A DNA stretch of 51,856 nt, from positions 1 to 51,856 of the IMG/VR virus record IMGVR_UViG_3300025087_000092. One strand, 5' to 3'. Below, one piece after another: positions 6,980 through 26,214 of the stretch. The notes beneath the pieces were generated by a model. The model saw only the letters and a list, made by a program, of their open reading frames with translations, did not search any database and was not told the origin of the DNA. A program made the translations under genes and the position numbers. The DNA is from a virus. The number at the start of each line of letters is the position of its first letter. Position 1 is the stretch's first letter.

Positions 6980-7714
6980 CTATTTCAATCCATAATATTC
7001 CGTTATTCTATTACAGACAAATAGCAAATCATTTTGAATTTTCGGTTGGAACATTTCAGCAGGTGACTTTGCTGCTGAAATGCCATCATGGCTGGTAAGA
7101 AAACTAAATGCCGTATTCGTCGTTCCAGCTTCGCGCATTACATCAGTCCACAAAACTAATGTAAACTCTTTTTCTATTTTACCTTCCCAGGCCTTACCCG
7201 AGACAGCACAGCGTCTGCTATGAAATTTAGTTCCATTTGGATTCATCATTTCAACTAGCTCGTCAATAGCTAAAATAATGATAAATTTACTAGTGTTCTT
7301 TTTAATGCGCTCCAGTAAATCAAATATACGTTGATTATATTCTTTATAAATATCATAACCTTTAAAAGTTTTACCACAAAGATTTAGTTGAAACTCACAA
7401 TATTTTGTAAAACTATCTAGCACTATGTATTTGATTTCTGGATCACGAAGTGCAGCTTGAATTGCTTGATCTATTTTGGCTGGTATTTCTTCAGTAACTA
7501 CTTTAGTAAAATTAAATGCATTTCGGAAGGGAAGTGTTTTGTTTTCAACATTAATAATGCAAGTTTGGGCGGGAGGTAAATTACGAATACTATAACTCTT
7601 GCCTGTTCCACTTCCACCTACAATAAGAGTTACTGGAAATGGTTTATTAATAACTGTTTTTTCTGCTGCAATTTTGTTCGCAGCCTCAATGATATTTATA
7701 TTATTATCGCTCAT
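6980..7714 (-). CDS. Sak4-like RecA-fold ATPase (single-strand annealing/recombination)
   Basis: This 244-aa protein has Walker A GGSGTGKS at residues 33-40, a Walker B-like strand KYIVLDSF near residue 100, and a later strand KFIIILAIDE. This is the compact RecA-core AAA_24 arrangement of the phage Sak4 family, small ATPases that work with an SSB in homologous recombination. The next gene encodes an SSB-like protein, as expected for Sak4. A textbook sigma-54-type promoter lies 30-45 bp upstream of the ATG, giving a leader of about 20 nt without an obvious Shine-Dalgarno sequence. Confidence 0.85.
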   Translation of the reverse strand: MSDNNINIIEAANKIAAEKTVINKPFPVTLIVGGSGTGKSYSIRNLPPAQTCIINVENKTLPFRNAFNFTKVVTEEIPAKIDQAIQAALRDPEIKYIVLDSFTKYCEFQLNLCGKTFKGYDIYKEYNQRIFDLLERIKKNTSKFIIILAIDELVEMMNPNGTKFHSRRCAVSGKAWEGKIEKEFTLVLWTDVMREAGTTNTAFSFLTSHDGISAAKSPAEMFQPKIQNDLLFVCNRITEYYGLK

Positions 7715-7743: not shown

Positions 7744-7759
7744 AGCAACTGGCATGCCA
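7744..7759 (-). promoter_or_regulatory. Sigma-54 (-24/-12) promoter for the Sak4/SSB genes
   Basis: On the minus strand the site reads TGGCATGCCAGTTGCT. GG (7758-7757) and GC (7746-7745) are separated by exactly 10 bp, as sigma-54 requires. Predicted start of transcription is near 7733, with the ATG at 7714. The -24 half also forms the perfect palindrome TGGCATGCCA. It lies in the 57-bp gap between the nuclease gene and the recombinase gene. Confidence 0.85.
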
Positions 7760-11147: not shown

Positions 11148-11654
11148 TTAACCTTCGTCCAAATCTTGCATAGCCAGTTCCATGGCTTGCGTCATAAGTT
11201 GCTTGGCGAGTTTCTTGTCGCCTTGTTTCATAGCTTCCCGTGCTTGACGGAAAAGTTTTTCCGGCGTTATATCACGTTCACCGGGCTTGAATGCCTCAGC
11301 ATCTTCTTCCGTTAATAACAGAATCTTATCTTCTGCTATCAACTTACTCCACGCCTTCTTTTGTTCTAATGCATCATCGAATTTAGGCAATCGTCCCTTG
11401 GCCTTGTTACGCATGCTAAACGCAATTGCACTATTAATAAGCGCAAGCATTGTGGCCTCTGTATATTTTTCGATTGCTGCAGCAAGTGATTTAAACTGAA
11501 TAATATAAAAAGAGAATCCGGAAGCCGCTCCATCAAAATCTTTCTTCTCAAGATAATATTCGCCCTTATCCACTCGAACTGTTTTTTCTTCTTCGTTTTC
11601 TGCCAATTCGGCAGGATTAATCTGATTTGTATTAATAATATTTTCTTCTGGCAT
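11148..11654 (-). CDS. Hypothetical protein, 168 aa, in its own strongly signalled transcription unit
   Basis: Not recognised. I chose ATG 11654 (MPEENIINTNQINPAEL) because a good Shine-Dalgarno sequence (AAAGGGAG) precedes it, and because an upstream ATG at 11720 would lie before the predicted transcription start near 11712. The protein is acidic at both ends, with YYLEKKDFDGAASGFSFYII in the middle and a C-terminal helical repeat-like part (LFRQAREAMKQGDKKLAKQL) reminiscent of a TPR helix pair. Strong promoter, ribosome site and terminator together suggest high expression. Confidence 0.75.
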   Translation of the reverse strand: MPEENIINTNQINPAELAENEEEKTVRVDKGEYYLEKKDFDGAASGFSFYIIQFKSLAAAIEKYTEATMLALINSAIAFSMRNKAKGRLPKFDDALEQKKAWSKLIAEDKILLLTEEDAEAFKPGERDITPEKLFRQAREAMKQGDKKLAKQLMTQAMELAMQDLDEG

Positions 11655-11715
11655 AATGTTCTCCCTTTTATTGTTGCTAACCTGGCTTACCACAATAGGC
11701 TTGCCCTTGCACATA

Positions 11716-11756
11716 CACACATAGCAATCGGCATGCCAATGTAGATGCTATGTGTG
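11716..11756. repeat. 11-bp inverted repeat enclosing the sigma-54 promoter
   Basis: CACACATAGCA (11716-11726) is exactly complementary to TGCTATGTGTG (11746-11756), with 19 bp between. The left arm covers the -12 element and the centre holds the -24 element. It lies just after the activator gene stop. It could be an operator for a dimeric regulator. It could also be an RNA hairpin in transcripts that read through from the activator gene; it has no T run typical of an intrinsic terminator. Confidence 0.7.
11723..11738 (-). promoter_or_regulatory. Sigma-54 (-24/-12) promoter for the 11148-11654 gene
   Basis: The minus strand reads TGGCATGCCGATTGCT. GG (11737-11736) and GC (11725-11724) are 10 bp apart. 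Predicted start is near 11712, leaving a 58-nt leader with a good ribosome site. The site overlaps the left arm of an 11-bp inverted repeat. The AAA+ activator gene ends 26 bp upstream (11764), so activator and promoter are neighbours. Confidence 0.85.
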
Positions 11757-11763
11757 CAAAATT

Positions 11764-12543
11764 TTATAAATCCCCTAGTATATTAGCCCGGGAAATTAAA
11801 TTAATTAATTCTCTTACATTACCTTTTAATTCTTCTCCTCTTTGTCTCATGCACATTATTTCCATAAATACTTTACATGCAATATCTTTATCTTTTGCAT
11901 AATGTTGACATAATAATTCTATATCTTTTATTGGTCTGCTGCGTAATGGAGGAATATGAATTATTATTGATGAAATTCTGTAGTATAAATCTTCTCGAAA
12001 TTTCTTTTGCTTGACTAATTCTATCAAGTCCGTGTTTGTGGCGCAAACTAATCTACAATTTGCGTGTTGTTCTTTGGTATCACCCAACCTACGGTAGAAA
12101 CCATTTTGTAGAAATCTTAACAATTTACTTTGCAATATCCAAGGCATGTCACCAATTTCATCAAGAAATAAAGTGCCACCATTTGCTTCTGTAACTAATC
12201 CATCTCTATCATACATACAACCCGTATAACTACCTTTAGTTGCGCCAAAAAATTCTGCCTCAAGTAATTCACTGGGTATTCCAGCGCAGTTAACAGCAAC
12301 AAACTGTGCTGGATTTTTACCGTGTAGGGCTTGAGCAATTAATTCTTTTCCGGTTCCAGTTTCTCCTAATATTAGAACTGGAATCGTTTTAATAGCTAGT
12401 TTACGTATTATTTGTTTTATAAATTCTATTGTTGGATCTGTCGTTATGAACTTTTCAAGTATTTCATTAGTTGATGCAGCATAATCTTCTTCATCTAATT
12501 GCTGCTCAAATTTCTTCATTTGTTCAATCAATTTATTGTTCAT
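11764..12543 (-). CDS. Minimal sigma-54 activator: stand-alone NtrC/PspF-class AAA+ core
   Basis: This 259-aa protein matches the central domain of bacterial enhancer-binding proteins: Walker A GETGTGKE (60-67), the sigma-54-contacting GAFTGA loop as GSYTGC (104-109), Walker B GGTLFLDEIGD (D128, E129), then FREDLYYRISS and PPLRSRPIKDI with the sensor/arginine-finger region, and a final NVRELINLISRANIL. It ends there: there is no Fis-type helix-turn-helix, and the first 30 or so residues are too short for a receiver or GAF domain. Known relatives hydrolyse ATP to open sigma-54 RNA polymerase promoters. Six sigma-54-type promoter matches in this genome make that role likely. It starts 1 nt after the partner gene at 12545 stops. 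Confidence 0.9.
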   Translation of the reverse strand: MNNKLIEQMKKFEQQLDEEDYAASTNEILEKFITTDPTIEFIKQIIRKLAIKTIPVLILGETGTGKELIAQALHGKNPAQFVAVNCAGIPSELLEAEFFGATKGSYTGCMYDRDGLVTEANGGTLFLDEIGDMPWILQSKLLRFLQNGFYRRLGDTKEQHANCRLVCATNTDLIELVKQKKFREDLYYRISSIIIHIPPLRSRPIKDIELLCQHYAKDKDIACKVFMEIMCMRQRGEELKGNVRELINLISRANILGDL

Positions 12544-12544
12544 A

Positions 12545-13408
12545 TTATTCTTCAGCTAATTTTTGTTTAAACTGAAATGCTTGGTTTATTAAAGCTAACA
12601 TTTCGTTTATAATTTCCTGTTGTGTTTTATTTTCATTAATTACCGGTATATAAATATCGGTTGATTCTATTTTATATTTATCCCAGCTAGTAGTTGCACT
12701 ATAGCCAGCACCAGAATAGAAACCAAATTTTTTTATTATATCTTTTGATTCCAATTCTTCTGAAGAAAAAATTAATCTGCGCAGCATGCTTGGGTGAGCA
12801 AATGCAAATGCTAATTTATCAATATCTGCCGGTTGATCAAATTCTTTCAAAAGAATTTGACTTGTATAAAAGTTATCATTGCCTTTTTGCACAGTATGCG
12901 AATACCACAATTCAAGTTGCCAACCAAATTTAAGCATTGCTTCTACTAAAGAAACAATACATGCCCCACGATTAAATATAGTATCATGATTTATATTTGA
13001 GATATGTCCAGCACCAATAATGAATCTTTGTAATATTTTTCCTTCTTTCAAAGATTCATAATTTGGTTTGAAATTAATCATGCAATCTGGAACACCATTA
13101 ATATAATTGCCAATATTAACAGCACCGCCAACTATATTGCTATATAGTTCTTCACTATAATCAAGTTTTGGAAAATACTTACTGATTATCGGATCAATTT
13201 GTATTTTCAATTCACGTATTTTATCTAATCCTTTTGGCCATCCAGTTCTTGCTAATTTAATTGCAGTTTCAAAATTAGGAGTGCCGGCCCATTCATTATG
13301 ATTTTTATCTGATATTCTAGATTCCTTGTCAAACTCGGTTTGCTTATCTTGTGTTGTGTATTTAAGAAAAGCATACCAATTATTGTATCTTCTTAAGATG
13401 TTTTCCAT
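12545..13408 (-). CDS. Partner protein of the CobS-like ATPase (DUF7192-like)
   Basis: This 287-aa protein has no P-loop. It contains WAGTPNFETAIKLARTGWPKG near residues 40-60 and later IGNYINGVPDCMINFKP. These blocks (F.G...ALxLAxxGWP... then a segment with PDCM) resemble a phage family I recall as DUF7192, usually encoded beside CobS/MoxR-like ATPases. It overlaps the ATPase gene by 16 nt and abuts the sigma-54 activator gene by 1 nt, so the three are probably translated together. A role as a VWA-like or adaptor partner is inference. Confidence 0.55.
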   Translation of the reverse strand: MENILRRYNNWYAFLKYTTQDKQTEFDKESRISDKNHNEWAGTPNFETAIKLARTGWPKGLDKIRELKIQIDPIISKYFPKLDYSEELYSNIVGGAVNIGNYINGVPDCMINFKPNYESLKEGKILQRFIIGAGHISNINHDTIFNRGACIVSLVEAMLKFGWQLELWYSHTVQKGNDNFYTSQILLKEFDQPADIDKLAFAFAHPSMLRRLIFSSEELESKDIIKKFGFYSGAGYSATTSWDKYKIESTDIYIPVINENKTQQEIINEMLALINQAFQFKQKLAEE

Positions 13409-14424
13409 GGATTGAAATCTTCGGTTGAAGTTATTTCAGACTGTTTATTAAAACCAAGCTTTACGCGTGCTTTTAGTTTATCTACTTGGCTAACTTCTAG
13501 TCCACGAAGTAATACACTGCAAACAAGAAAGTTTTTGTCAACTCCACTAGCAAGCATACGGATTGCTTGAAGTGTATTACGCGGTGAGATAATATGGTTA
13601 ATAGATAATTCATCAATAGCAGCCCGAATATCCACTATACTTTTGACTGTTAAATCAAAATCATTTTTATCCTTGCCACCATACCGACAATATTCATTCC
13701 ATGCTATATTGTGTTCGAATTCTTCATCATAGGGCCAATGAAGATATACAAAAATATTTAATAGTGCTTTATCTTGTGGATTGCGTCCGACATACTGTGC
13801 ATCTGCACCATTGCCAATGGTATTTGCACCAGCAACGAGGCGAAAATTAGGATGCTTATTTATGTTACCAATTGATGGAAAATGACAAACATCCCCGTCA
13901 TTAAGCATCTTTAATGCAACATTAGTGTTTGCGTTGCCATTATCTATTTCATCTATAAATAACAGACCACCATTTTTATATGGTTCATATGCAATGCCTG
14001 GGACATATTTACCATTTGCATCAGTATAGCCAATAATTTCATAAATCATAGTCTCTCTTGAAACTACCTTGCGATATGATTGTAGTTGCATTTGATTTGC
14101 AGCATTAATTACTGCAACAGTTTTGCCGCTACCAGTCGGGCCATATAAATATATAGCATCAGGCCGAGTAAGGCATGATAATAGCAAAGGATAGTTTTTG
14201 TGTTGTGATTTAACCACAAGCTCATTAGACAGTTGTGGTATATCAAGTGGTTTGAATTTAATTATTGTTTCGGCAGGTTTATTGCCTGCTATAAATGCTT
14301 TAATATCTTCAGCATTAATTAGCTTGTGAGCAATAATTTCGTTATGTATAATATCACAAATAACTCGTTCGTCAATTTTAACCTGTTTACTGACTTCATC
14401 AGTGATTATTTTTAACAAGTCCAT
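13393..14424 (-). CDS. MoxR/CobS-like AAA+ ATPase
   Basis: 343 aa with Walker A GPTGSGKT (95-102), Walker B GGLLFIDEIDN, and a sensor strand FRLVAGANTIGNG. The AAA_5 order (YLYGPTGSGKT, then a PG/YEPY loop, then DEID, then ALxMLNDG) is that of CobS and MoxR chaperone ATPases, which remodel partner proteins together with an adjacent partner. The N-terminal 80 residues are a helical leader. The gene precedes the DUF7192-like partner and the sigma-54-type ATPase, so two different AAA+ proteins are made from adjacent genes. Confidence 0.85.
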   Translation of the reverse strand: MDLLKIITDEVSKQVKIDERVICDIIHNEIIAHKLINAEDIKAFIAGNKPAETIIKFKPLDIPQLSNELVVKSQHKNYPLLLSCLTRPDAIYLYGPTGSGKTVAVINAANQMQLQSYRKVVSRETMIYEIIGYTDANGKYVPGIAYEPYKNGGLLFIDEIDNGNANTNVALKMLNDGDVCHFPSIGNINKHPNFRLVAGANTIGNGADAQYVGRNPQDKALLNIFVYLHWPYDEEFEHNIAWNEYCRYGGKDKNDFDLTVKSIVDIRAAIDELSINHIISPRNTLQAIRMLASGVDKNFLVCSVLLRGLEVSQVDKLKARVKLGFNKQSEITSTEDFNPWKTS

Positions 14425-18059: not shown

Positions 18060-18094
18060 AAAAAAGCTAGTCTATAATTATATAGACTAGCTTT
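18060..18094 (-). terminator. Intrinsic terminator/attenuator after the first leftward gene
   Basis: A perfect 14-bp stem (18063-18076 with 18081-18094; core GCTAGTCTATA / TATAGACTAGC) has an ATTA loop, and on the minus strand is followed by TTTTTT. It lies 15 nt after the stop of the gene at 18110. The next ATG (18054) comes almost at once, which suggests that most transcripts end here and a fraction, or an antiterminated form, continues into the long leftward operon. Confidence 0.85.
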
Positions 18095-18109: not shown

Positions 18110-18580
18110 TTAAATTTCAGTTGATTCGTTGTCGTCAAGACCCTCGAATAAAAGCTCTTGTGCTCTGTCCCAAGCGGCTTTACTTGCTGCACTAAAGCGC
18201 TTGAATTCATCCATTTTACCTGCGGCTTTCGCCGCAAGTGCCTGTTTGCGAAACTCTTGACTATCCCGCATAAATCCAGCACTGCCCTTTTCTCTGCCGC
18301 GTGGGGCAGAGATGTCCATTAGCCAGTCATTAATGGACTTTTCAAATTCAGCAATGTTGCCATCCGCTTGTTTCCAGTGGTATTGGCAAAATTGATCCAT
18401 TGCATCATCAACAATTTCAGCAGCCTTGCTGGCACCGAATATACTGTTGATGTTGGCCAGACTGATGGCCAGGCGTGGATACGACCATTTTTCTCCACGC
18501 TTTGTTGATGCTGCATTTACATTGCAGTCATGCCCGTTAATGTTGAGAATGTTCGAACCGCTGAAACTCTTAATATTCAT
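18110..18580 (-). CDS. First leftward gene: hypothetical protein, 156 aa
   Basis: Not recognised. The N-terminus is short and polar (MNIKSFSGSNILNINGHD), then comes a helical region (SKAAEIVDDAMDQFCQYHW), a disordered loop SAPRGREKGSAG, and a helix FRKQALAAKAAGKMDEFKRF. A ribosome site AAAGGG precedes the ATG. It is flanked by the best-matching sigma-54-type promoter and by a strong terminator, so it should be abundant, like the gene at 11148. Its early position suggests a DNA- or host-interacting protein, but that is inference. Confidence 0.75.
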   Translation of the reverse strand: MNIKSFSGSNILNINGHDCNVNAASTKRGEKWSYPRLAISLANINSIFGASKAAEIVDDAMDQFCQYHWKQADGNIAEFEKSINDWLMDISAPRGREKGSAGFMRDSQEFRKQALAAKAAGKMDEFKRFSAASKAAWDRAQELLFEGLDDNESTEI

Positions 18581-18631: not shown

Positions 18632-18647
18632 AGCAATAATTGTGCCA
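18632..18647 (-). promoter_or_regulatory. Sigma-54 (-24/-12) promoter of the leftward arm
   Basis: The minus strand reads TGGCACAATTATTGCT, a full match to the TGGCAC-N5-TTGCW consensus, with GG (18646-18645) and GC (18634-18633) 10 bp apart. Predicted start is near 18621, giving a leader of about 41 nt to the ATG at 18580. This is the closest to consensus of the six sites and heads the longest operon, which includes the activator gene some 6 kb downstream. Confidence 0.88.
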
Positions 18648-19321: not shown

Positions 19322-19354
19322 GATTTGGCATACAGATTTGATTTGGCATGCAGA
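19322..19354 (+). repeat. Tandem duplication of the -24 half-site
   Basis: GATTTGGCATACAGA (19322-19336) is repeated with one change as GATTTGGCATGCAGA (19340-19354), a period of 18 bp. Only the second copy has a GC at the -12 position. The first may be a relic of promoter duplication or an extra binding site for sigma-54 or another factor. Confidence 0.7.
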
Positions 19355-19359
19355 ATGCT
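19344..19359 (+). promoter_or_regulatory. Sigma-54 (-24/-12) promoter of the virion arm
   Basis: Reads TGGCATGCAGAATGCT, with GG (19345-19346) and GC (19357-19358) 10 bp apart. Predicted start is near 19370, only about 5 nt before the ATG of the small terminase, so the first gene would have an almost leaderless message with no Shine-Dalgarno sequence. It drives the terminase-portal-scaffold genes. Confidence 0.85.
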
Positions 19360-19777: not shown

Positions 19778-21394
19778 ATGAGTGACTATCGAGAGTTTCC
19801 AGTTAAATTTGAATCACCAGTAGAATTATTAGCATTCTATGATGATGACATGAATAATGGTCAAATTAAATTGCATAACTGGCAAATTGATCGCATGAAA
19901 GTTTTTGGTAGAAATCGTAAAAATTCAGCAGATATAATTAAAGCAGCTTTATGTTCAGCTAATGGTGTTGGCAAATCACAATTTGTCCTTGCCCCTTGCG
20001 CGTGTTGGATGGCGATAACACATGTGGAAAGTCTCACAGTAATTACTACTGCATCCGGTGAACAACTTGATACACAAGATCAGCGGTATATAAGAAGACT
20101 TGGAGAAAAAATTAATTCAGTTCATCGTGAAGATTTAGGCGGCATGGATGTATTTAAATTAAATTACCGACAATTCTTCAATAATGTTACTGGTAGTTTT
20201 ATTGATATGTTTGCCACAGATGAACCTAAGAAAGCAGAAGGAAGACATCCTATCAGACCTAATGCAGAATTTGCTATAATTGTTGATGAAGCAAAAACAG
20301 TAAGTGATGATATATTTGGAGCCTTAGATCGTTGCACGGGTTTCACCCGTAAATATCTTATTTCTTCTCCAGGCGATAGTTCTGGTTATTTTTATGATAT
20401 AATGATTATGTCAGATAGTGGCTTTGATAAAAGAACTGTAACTGCATTTGAATGTAGTCATTTAAATAAAGATGACATAGCATGGAAAATTCGCAAATAT
20501 GGTCTCAATCATCCATTAATCAGATCAAGTATATTTGCAGAATTTGTGCATATAGGAGGAGCAGTAGTAATAAGTAGAGAATTATTAAAGAAATGTCAAG
20601 CATTACTTACACGCATTATTCATTTTGGTCCAATCCGTGCCGGCTTTGATATTTCAGCTGGCGGAGATGAGCAAGTAATTAGTATTTGGCATGGCAATGA
20701 AATGTTGGCTCAAATATGTTGGAATATTACAGATACTATTGAACTTGTTTATAAAGCTATTGAAGTATTTAAAGAGTGGAAAATAGATGCACGAAATATT
20801 TATGCTGATGATGGTGGATTAGGAAGAGCAGTTATTGATAATTTTCGTGAAAAAGGTTGGAATTTTAATAGAATAAATAATCAAAGCCGTGCTTATGATT
20901 ATATGCACTATGCAAATAGGGGTGCAGAATTATACTGGAATTTTCGCAGATTTGTTGAGGAAAAACAAGTAAAAATAATTGATGACGGAATACTTTTTAA
21001 TCAACTTACTACTCGTCAGACTCGTCAACAACAAGCAACAGGTAAAATATTATTAGAAAGTAAAGCAGAAGCAAAGAAACATGGTAGGCCATCACCTGAT
21101 AGAGCAGACGCCTGCGTTCTTGCATGGGTTCCGTATATATTTCCTGTTGATGCTTTACAGCATAATGCTGATGATAAAAATGATAGAACTACACATTGTC
21201 AAGCAATAACAGCAGAAGAATTAATAGCATTATTTGATACTGAACTAAGAATGAATTATCAAGCTGGCATGAATAATGCTAATAATAATGTTGTAGATGG
21301 ACGATATATCAAAAATGATAATTTCGTCAGCAATTATAAAACATTAATGGAGAAATTAAATGAAAGATCAAAAATTTTCAGAAGATATGAATAA
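19778..21394 (+). CDS. terL: Terminase large subunit (packaging ATPase/nuclease)
   Basis: 538 aa from ATG 19778; a TTG at 19766 in frame is less likely because it overlaps the upstream gene. The ATPase half has a Walker A-like SANGVGKS (60-67) and Walker B FAIIVDEAKTV. The RNase H-like nuclease half has AGFDISAGGDEQVI, IYADDGGLGRAVID and a late aspartate in SPDRADACVLAW. It packages DNA through the portal. The last part (after about residue 460) is polar and variable. A sigma-54-type sequence lies within its 3' end (21265-21280). Confidence 0.93.
   Translation: MSDYREFPVKFESPVELLAFYDDDMNNGQIKLHNWQIDRMKVFGRNRKNSADIIKAALCSANGVGKSQFVLAPCACWMAITHVESLTVITTASGEQLDTQDQRYIRRLGEKINSVHREDLGGMDVFKLNYRQFFNNVTGSFIDMFATDEPKKAEGRHPIRPNAEFAIIVDEAKTVSDDIFGALDRCTGFTRKYLISSPGDSSGYFYDIMIMSDSGFDKRTVTAFECSHLNKDDIAWKIRKYGLNHPLIRSSIFAEFVHIGGAVVISRELLKKCQALLTRIIHFGPIRAGFDISAGGDEQVISIWHGNEMLAQICWNITDTIELVYKAIEVFKEWKIDARNIYADDGGLGRAVIDNFREKGWNFNRINNQSRAYDYMHYANRGAELYWNFRRFVEEKQVKIIDDGILFNQLTTRQTRQQQATGKILLESKAEAKKHGRPSPDRADACVLAWVPYIFPVDALQHNADDKNDRTTHCQAITAEELIALFDTELRMNYQAGMNNANNNVVDGRYIKNDNFVSNYKTLMEKLNERSKIFRRYE
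21265..21280 (+). promoter_or_regulatory. Possible internal sigma-54 promoter within terL
   Basis: Reads TGGCATGAATAATGCT, the same pattern as the intergenic sites, with GG (21266-21267) and GC (21278-21279) 10 bp apart. Predicted start is near 21291, 69 nt before the small gene at 21360 and about 350 nt before the portal. Being in coding sequence it might be coincidence; its exact agreement with the phage's own consensus argues for a second promoter ahead of the portal genes. Confidence 0.5.
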
Positions 21395-24764: not shown

Positions 24765-24780
24765 TGGCATAATATATGCT
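24765..24780 (+). promoter_or_regulatory. Sigma-54 (-24/-12) promoter of the major capsid gene
   Basis: Reads TGGCATAATATATGCT, with GG (24766-24767) and GC (24778-24779) 10 bp apart. Predicted start is near 24791, which gives a leader of about 146 nt to the capsid ATG. A dedicated promoter for the most abundant virion protein makes biological sense. Confidence 0.82.
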
Positions 24781-24797: not shown

Positions 24798-24909
24798 TAA
24801 TTGTAGCTATAAAGTAGCAAGTTAGTTCGCCTGCCAATGGCTGGTGTATTGCTTCTGTTTAGTGAAGGGCATCACTGGTTAACTTGCTAGCACCTTAGTT
24901 TAGCAATTA
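24798..24909 (+). ncRNA. Structured 5' leader RNA of the major capsid gene
   Basis: The leader can fold as nested stems: TAATTG / CAATTA (24798-24803 with 24904-24909), a perfect 10-bp stem TAGCAAGTTA / TAACTTGCTA (24815-24824 with 24880-24889), and inside it two hairpins, CCTGCC-AAT-GGCTGG (near 24830-24844) and AGTGA-AGGGCA-TCACT (24861-24876). This is a three-way junction. It does not match a riboswitch or tRNA that I know. It may stabilise the capsid message or bind a regulator. A modest ribosome site (AGAAGG) lies downstream before the ATG at 24937. Confidence 0.6.
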
Positions 24910-24936: not shown

Positions 24937-26214
24937 ATGCCAGTTCAATATGATCTTCCGGAGTATTTTGCTCCAGCATCCCTTGAGGATGTAAATAAAT
25001 ATAATAGACTTCCGTATTACTTGGCTATGGTAGAAGCCAAGTATTTTCCAGAGTGGCAAGTGTTTAATTCATTATTTGGTAAGTTAACATGGCAACCAAA
25101 TATGGGTTCAACTTTGCGTTCAGTTCGTGCTGAACCAACGCCAGTTGGACAACAGCAATTCTTTCCTGTGGATATAGATCATACTCCACAGAAAAACGTG
25201 TATGAAACGTTGGAATTCATTCAGGATACCAACCTTAAAATGCACGATTATGATAGCAAGCAGTTTCATTTCTTGCCTTCGTTTCAAGATTTTCGCGAAA
25301 ATCAACTGGATTTCAATCATAAGGATATTGTGCGTCAAATTGCTATTTCTAATGATATATTTATTAGTAGTGTTTTGATGCAAAAAACTCCTATGGGAAT
25401 TCTTAGCGGAAATCTTGGTGGCGGTCCTGTGCAACCAATGCCAATTGTTCCTAATGGAACTTCTATTACGGCAGCTAGTGTTGCTGCGTCGGGTAAAAAT
25501 ACTGCATTCTTTATTAATACTGCTGCAAATATTAGTAAAGGTCTTACACTTGCTTGCCTTGATTATGCAGTTTGTGCATTACGTGATGATATGGGTGCAC
25601 CCTTCTTTGAAGGAACTATTAATACTCCACGTGATAATGAACTTATTAAAGGCAAATATGTTTTGCTCACAAGTAGCGAAGCTTGGCAAATGTTCAAATA
25701 CGATCCAAACTTCCAGCAATTTCGTAATGTTAATTTGAATGTTGTTACTGATGGATTTCGTGGTTCAATTTTTGATGAAGTTACCACAAAAATTCTTCGG
25801 TATCCGTTCCGTTTTGCTGATGATGGAACTGTTCCAGCGCCTGAAATATATGATGCTGTAACAGGTTTAACTGTTAGGAATCCAGCATATACTGCGGCAC
25901 CTAATGAAATTGCTTGGCTTACTGGTGCTGATGTGCTCAAAACTATTAAAGTTGGCCCGCCTCCTCGTGCATTTGCGGCAAAATCTATGGCACGTGAAAA
26001 GTTTTATTCTATGCGATGGAATGGAGAAGTTCAGTTGACAGATCAAGTTCTCGTTCAATATCTTGATCCTGGAACTGGAACCATTGTTTATGATACGAAT
26101 GTTCGTGGTCGTTTGCTTAAATTAATTGGTAGCGTTATTTATGGTGCAATTCCTGTTTGCCCACATAATTGTTTTCCAATTGCTTTTAAGCGTCAACGTC
26201 CACAAATTGTTTAA
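24937..26214 (+). CDS. Major capsid protein
   Basis: 425 aa, preceded by scaffold and by its own promoter and leader. The sequence (PASLEDVNKYNRLPYYLAMV, SLFGKLTWQPNMGSTLRSVR, RQIAISNDIFISSVLMQKTP, and a late VQYLDPGTGTIVYDTNVRGR) has the mixed alpha/beta character and size of HK97-fold coat proteins of podoviruses with large capsids. There is no cleavable delta domain evident. It forms the icosahedral shell. The assignment is by gene order, size and composition. Confidence 0.85.
   Translation: MPVQYDLPEYFAPASLEDVNKYNRLPYYLAMVEAKYFPEWQVFNSLFGKLTWQPNMGSTLRSVRAEPTPVGQQQFFPVDIDHTPQKNVYETLEFIQDTNLKMHDYDSKQFHFLPSFQDFRENQLDFNHKDIVRQIAISNDIFISSVLMQKTPMGILSGNLGGGPVQPMPIVPNGTSITAASVAASGKNTAFFINTAANISKGLTLACLDYAVCALRDDMGAPFFEGTINTPRDNELIKGKYVLLTSSEAWQMFKYDPNFQQFRNVNLNVVTDGFRGSIFDEVTTKILRYPFRFADDGTVPAPEIYDAVTGLTVRNPAYTAAPNEIAWLTGADVLKTIKVGPPPRAFAAKSMAREKFYSMRWNGEVQLTDQVLVQYLDPGTGTIVYDTNVRGRLLKLIGSVIYGAIPVCPHNCFPIAFKRQRPQIV

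Follow-up and report, generated by a model that had tools for sequence, protein, structure and literature searches.

How does a phage use a sigma-54 activator that has been reduced to its AAA+ core? In bacteria, sigma-54 is generally regarded as a system under tight, signal-dependent control. The gene that raises this question lies in a 51,856-base IMG/VR virus record (IMGVR_UViG_3300025087_000092), and we refer to this whole stretch as the window. The window contains polA, Sak4, PD-(D/E)XK nuclease, helicase, and terminase genes, and therefore the activator gene resides in a tailed phage. An earlier note had described the protein as a 259-aa core with neither a receiver nor a helix-turn-helix (HTH), and had proposed a phage regulon driven by way of host RpoN. 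The activator gene and its GAFTGA-type loop are as follows:

11764 to 12543, minus strand: stand-alone sigma-54 activator core (minimal bacterial enhancer-binding protein, bEBP), 259 aa, ATG start; based on Pfam Sigma54_activat, motifs, and an alignment of 30 viral homologs.
12217 to 12234, minus strand: GAFTGA-type loop L1, GSYTGC, aa 104-109; placed by motif location, with an identical GSYTGC in the related loci L088 and L262.

The earlier description of the protein holds. The open reading frame is exact, and a Pfam search matched it to Sigma54_activat (PF00158) with E=6.2e-59 over nearly the whole profile (positions 2-167 of 168). Its motifs include Walker A GETGTGKE (aa 60-67), Walker B LFLDEI (aa 125-130), sensor I ATNTDL (aa 168-173), the R-finger FREDLYYR (aa 182-189), and sensor II GNVREL (aa 241-246), with the C-terminus only 13 aa further on. 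No receiver domain precedes the core in the window, the window protein and the 30 viral cores aligned with it all lack a C-terminal HTH, and there is no HTH-like frame behind the activator. By sequence, the nearest solved structures are NtrC-family cores, FleQ, and PspF, the last being a relative to which the note had pointed. Read from these motifs, the protein is a complete AAA+ core of the bEBP family with its catalytic residues intact, and it would be expected to hydrolyze ATP, form a ring, and contact sigma-54. The GSYTGC loop is three positions off GAFTGA and is rare within the lineage; among the loops read, only the window, L088, and L262 have it. Activity is reported for proteins with GSFTGA or GAYTGA in this loop (PMC6615313), and a literature search returned no published activity test of the exact triple variant. 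Immediately upstream of the activator, at 12545-14424, are a CobS/MoxR-like AAA+ gene and a DUF7192 gene, which have matches among related loci only in L067 and L088.

An HTH is usual in bEBPs, but it does not define every member, as FleT, CtcC, and FlgR are without it. The closest named architecture is FleT of Rhodobacter (Cereibacter) sphaeroides, described as the only bEBP with neither a regulatory nor a DNA-binding domain (PMC7175178, PMC3162934). We liken the two by architecture, not sequence: FleT is a bacterial flagellar regulator, whereas the phage cores are encoded in phage genomes and linked to phage promoters. CtcC of Chlamydia and FlgR of Helicobacter (bEBP group 5) resemble the phage core in having no HTH, but they have an N-terminal receiver and the phage cores have none. 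PspF matches the phage core in sequence and also has no receiver; however, it carries an HTH and is regulated by a protein that binds it in trans, whereas the phage core ends at sensor II. There are precedents for the note's statement that cores alone can act from solution: truncated DctD (DctD250), which has no DNA-binding domain, activates from solution (PMC3844500), and the CtcC ATPase domain alone activates a sigma-54 regulon (PMC7482065). Sigma-54 activation by an AAA+ core is thus already known; its use as a phage transcription switch would be, as far as we have found, new. Our literature search, with subscription papers and preprints outside its scope, found no phage-encoded bEBP or phage sigma-54 regulon, in line with the note's statement that it knew of no well-described phage organized this way; three seeming leads proved to be hits within reference lists.

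Most activator matches in the phage collection come from host bEBPs annotated as such or from scaffolds without annotation, and three fecal scaffolds examined have no other gene in common with the window. Several INPHARED records, among them CAKLQH020000012, OR848101, and AGRM01000002, hold annotated host regulators or unannotated bEBP matches and look bacterial; such records inflate counts of phage bEBPs. Phage DP SC_2_H4_2017 (MT121960; L002:17770-18684) does encode a stand-alone core, of 304 aa with a GAFTGA loop and no HTH seen after it, but it shares only the activator gene with the window (tblastn), and the 36.6 kb read from it contained no strict sigma-54 site. Its core is located among replication-like genes.

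The earlier note had counted six sigma-54-type promoters, and a strict search for TGGCAY-N6-TGCW found exactly 6 sites in the window, 5 of them intergenic and 1 within the 3' end of terL. A position weight matrix (PWM) scan of the window gave 8 sites scoring >=14, compared with a mean of 3.15 and a maximum of 8 in shuffles. This excess is only moderate, and relatives were therefore needed to establish significance. The sites and the genes they are predicted to serve are:

11723 to 11738, minus strand: predicted sigma-54 promoter TGGCATGCCGATTGCT, in the gap separating the activator from gene 11148-11720; each of the 41 relatives tested has an orthologous site.
11148 to 11720, minus strand: predicted first target gene of the TGGCATGCCGATTGCT promoter, function unassigned; homologs in 41 loci.
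7744 to 7759, minus strand: predicted sigma-54 promoter TGGCATGCCAGTTGCT, ahead of the Sak4 gene; strict search and PWM.
6980 to 7714, minus strand: Sak4-like ssDNA annealing protein, predicted target; PHROG 2872, 5.8e-36.
18632 to 18647, minus strand: predicted sigma-54 promoter TGGCACAATTATTGCT, upstream of gene 18110-18580; strict search and PWM.
18063 to 18094, minus strand: terminator-like hairpin behind gene 18110-18580; 14-pair stem, then a T run.
19344 to 19359, plus strand: predicted sigma-54 promoter TGGCATGCAGAATGCT, heading the terminase genes; strict search and PWM.
21265 to 21280, plus strand: sigma-54-like site TGGCATGAATAATGCT, within the terL 3' end, 95 nt before gene 21360, a weaker case; strict search.
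24765 to 24780, plus strand: predicted sigma-54 promoter TGGCATAATATATGCT, with the capsid gene 172 nt downstream; same place in 20/20 genomes and 62/79 loci.

The AF2 model of the 11148-11720 product is of low confidence, and a likelier start for this gene is near 11654, downstream of a purine-rich Shine-Dalgarno-like sequence. An inverted repeat (CACACATAGCA/TGCTATGTGTG, 11716-11760), which might serve as an operator or attenuator, flanks the sigma-54 site at 11738, and the downstream arm of the repeat overlaps the -12 element. Because of the terminator-like hairpin, the TGGCACAATTATTGCT site probably drives one gene only. No promoter was found for the activator gene itself, as the site at 18647 would serve only that single terminated gene.

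Single-protein queries with the activator or TerL against IMG/VR viral contigs gave no matches, unlike an aligned query: the alignment-based scan with the activator yielded 250 contigs with homologs, of which the best 80 were kept. Among these 80, the majority of homologs are stand-alone cores of 235-302 aa. All 30 aligned viral cores stop at the sensor II region, with the catalytic residues and those of [FY]TG retained, and across about 60 viral homologs the [FY]TG loop and catalytic motifs are likewise kept. When a quick tree was built together with homologs from bacteria and from multidomain proteins, 27/30 viral cores formed one clade (SH-aLRT 97), and the cores of the window, L088, and L102 are near this main viral clade without a resolved placement. 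The window and dozens of related IMG/VR contigs also have a gene order in common: helicase, activator, 11148-type, 9799-type, PD-(D/E)XK nuclease, Sak4, 6479-type, and PolA. Many of the loci are near-copies, so that counts of loci, here and below, are not counts of independent events, and the promoter counts rest on simple gene calls and simple patterns.

Within this shared block, the 11148-type gene is preceded by a sigma-54 site in 41/41 related loci, which include many near-copies and represent ~15 distinct site sequences. The site usually lies <=150 nt from the activator stop codon, and in L091, L104, and L113 it is only a few bases past it. In L067 and L100, the 11148-type gene is 1.6-2 kb from the activator, and there the promoter adjoins the gene, not the activator. 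The variant in L088 has AGC in place of TGC.

Genome-wide statistics from the window and 21 relatives (22 genomes) give the significance that the window alone did not. The canonical pattern TGGCAY-N6-TGCW occurs 119 times, versus 5-20 times with other spacings and a mean of 5.7 for permuted motifs. Counting extragenic sites only, there are 85 canonical sites versus 0-3 with other spacings and 0.58 for permuted motifs. Among the sites that are not deep within genes, 79/94 have a same-strand gene start <=350 nt downstream, compared with 10 if reversed, and the strand asymmetry in upstream regions is 53 to 3. Motif positions that the search pattern left free also match the sigma-54 consensus. The predicted promoters therefore have the GG and GC elements, fixed spacing, and correct orientation upstream of genes that characterize -24/-12 promoters. 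Sigma-70-type and Bacteroidota-type promoters, considered as the main system, were rejected, as they show no strand asymmetry in upstream regions. Three Akkermansia phages with distantly related terminases contain no strict sigma-54 sites.

The other recurrent promoter leads to the capsid gene:

24937 to 26214, plus strand: major capsid protein, 425 aa, predicted sigma-54 target; AF2 and Foldseek.
24859 to 24878, plus strand: leader hairpin with an AGGGCA loop, in the capsid transcript; leader comparison.

The product of 24937-26214 is very probably a major capsid protein with the HK97 fold, judging from its AF2 model (pLDDT 79.6, pTM 0.80), for which Foldseek gave a probability of 1.00 to phage HK97-fold capsids; query-normalized TM-scores were 0.29-0.52 among the matches listed. 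The protein family has no Pfam or PHROG matches, and tblastn of the protein against 50,697 phage records found no match; however, the family is present in at least 88 IMG/VR contigs. A sigma-54 site lies upstream of the capsid gene in each of the 20 genomes compared, including G007, where the capsid start was called too early and the site falls just inside the called gene. A second IMG/VR scan, with the capsid protein as query, gave 79 loci, which we searched with a slightly relaxed site pattern in the 300 nt upstream. A site was found there in 62 of the 79, versus 9/79 gene-body controls, and several of the remaining loci have, by eye, a TGGCAG variant at the same position. One capsid clade is without the capsid site (L190, L191, L193, L196, L200, L207, L247, and L251); contigs examined from it retain the site that follows the activator gene. 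In the stretch from the sigma-54 site to the start of the capsid gene, 63/80 leaders (window plus L179-L257) have at least one AGGGCA-loop hairpin and 49/80 have two, usually in tandem, compared with 0/79 gene-body controls with any. An Rfam scan for the leader hairpin in the window and four loci returned no match.

Capsid and activator travel together. When near-complete contigs were chosen by the capsid gene alone, 35/35 encoded a Sigma54_activat protein, nearly all of them stand-alone cores. The activator could be read in 29 of the capsid-selected contigs; 26/29 have a strict site <=900 nt downstream, and 28/29 have a loop of the form G[AS][FY]TG[ACS]. A phage-encoded sigma-54 factor was rejected: the RpoN DNA-binding domain (PF04552) was found in 0/48 viral records, many of them fragmentary and the window not among them, in a search that was positive in 4/14 control genomes. 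These phages form a large, widespread, and apparently undescribed lineage with a conserved predicted regulon, rather than one odd phage.

Altogether, the conserved loop and catalytic motifs, the orthologous promoters, the co-occurrence in 35/35 contigs, and the absence of rpoN from the 48 viral records strongly support the earlier proposal of a phage regulon under a stripped-down activator that would work through host RpoN. We consider it very likely that the minimal bEBP of the phage acts on the host's sigma-54 polymerase where it sits on phage promoters, thereby switching on the recombination/replication block and the capsid gene. The activator would be made early; its core, as in the rest of its family, would assemble into an ATP-driven ring; and its GAFTGA-type loop, given the motif and the conservation of the promoters, would remodel host sigma-54 RNA polymerase waiting at those promoters. 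The targets would be the recombination/replication block that starts directly behind the activator gene and the major capsid transcript; in the window, Sak4, the terminase genes, and one more gene would join them. The deviant GSYTGC loop, the capsid clade without a capsid site, DP SC_2_H4_2017 without a strict site in the stretch read, and the negative outcome for the activator's own promoter count against this reading. A broader claim, which we hold to be probable, is that these uncultured tailed phages, whose near-complete contigs span about 40-65 kb, use host sigma-54 as their main middle/late system by way of a free, enhancer-less phage activator, with a two-promoter core regulon and an undescribed tandem-hairpin capsid leader.

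The activator most likely acts from solution, because it lacks a DNA-binding domain and the promoters have no upstream enhancer in common as far as a crude search could see: in most genomes tested, it showed no shared 9-mer or dyad there. The best-surviving alternative, though an unlikely one, is that a separate phage or host DNA-binding protein tethers the core to promoters, for example, a full-length paralog in a mixed ring. In its favor, bEBPs truncated so as to act from solution have lower activity than their tethered counterparts (PMC3844500), and several phage promoters need to be served. However, the result of the enhancer search argues against tethering, and in L091, L104, and L113, the enhancer would need to sit inside the activator coding sequence.

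We think it considerably less probable that host bEBPs serve the phage promoters while the core encoded by the phage disturbs or diverts the host's own sigma-54 transcription. Sigma-54 governs many host functions, and a free core could reach host promoters too; yet a conserved target promoter follows directly behind the activator, which also accompanies one capsid type in 35/35 contigs, its ATPase and loop motifs are kept although a pure inhibitor would not need them, and the crude search detected no host-type enhancer. That the protein has left transcription to become a generic remodeler, such as a helicase loader or a partner of the adjacent CobS/MoxR-like AAA+ and DUF7192 proteins, is most improbable. 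Its gene does sit among replication genes, as does the DP SC_2_H4_2017 core, with no strict site in the stretch read, and the window, L067, and L088 loci also encode CobS-like and DUF7192 proteins; but that pair was found in just two related loci, survival of a GAFTGA-type loop would not be expected, and sigma-54 promoters are tied to the activator gene and its regulon.

If regulation by the minimal phage activator is correct, a phage lineage relying on sigma-54 would represent a new way of seizing host transcription, its activators would be natural, minimal, untethered proteins for mechanistic study, and hosts without rpoN are predicted to be unable to support activator-bearing phages. The combination of activator, capsid, and promoter set is a marker for recognizing this uncultured lineage and seeking its hosts. 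A capsid-profile search of genomes drawn by phylum gave no match (two of the draws shared genomes), and a tRNA gene search found none. The nearest TerL matches are Akkermansia phages at ~30% identity, too weak for us to accept Akkermansia as the host. Shine-Dalgarno-like sites precede 7/43 genes in the window, and this scarcity hints at a Shine-Dalgarno-poor host.
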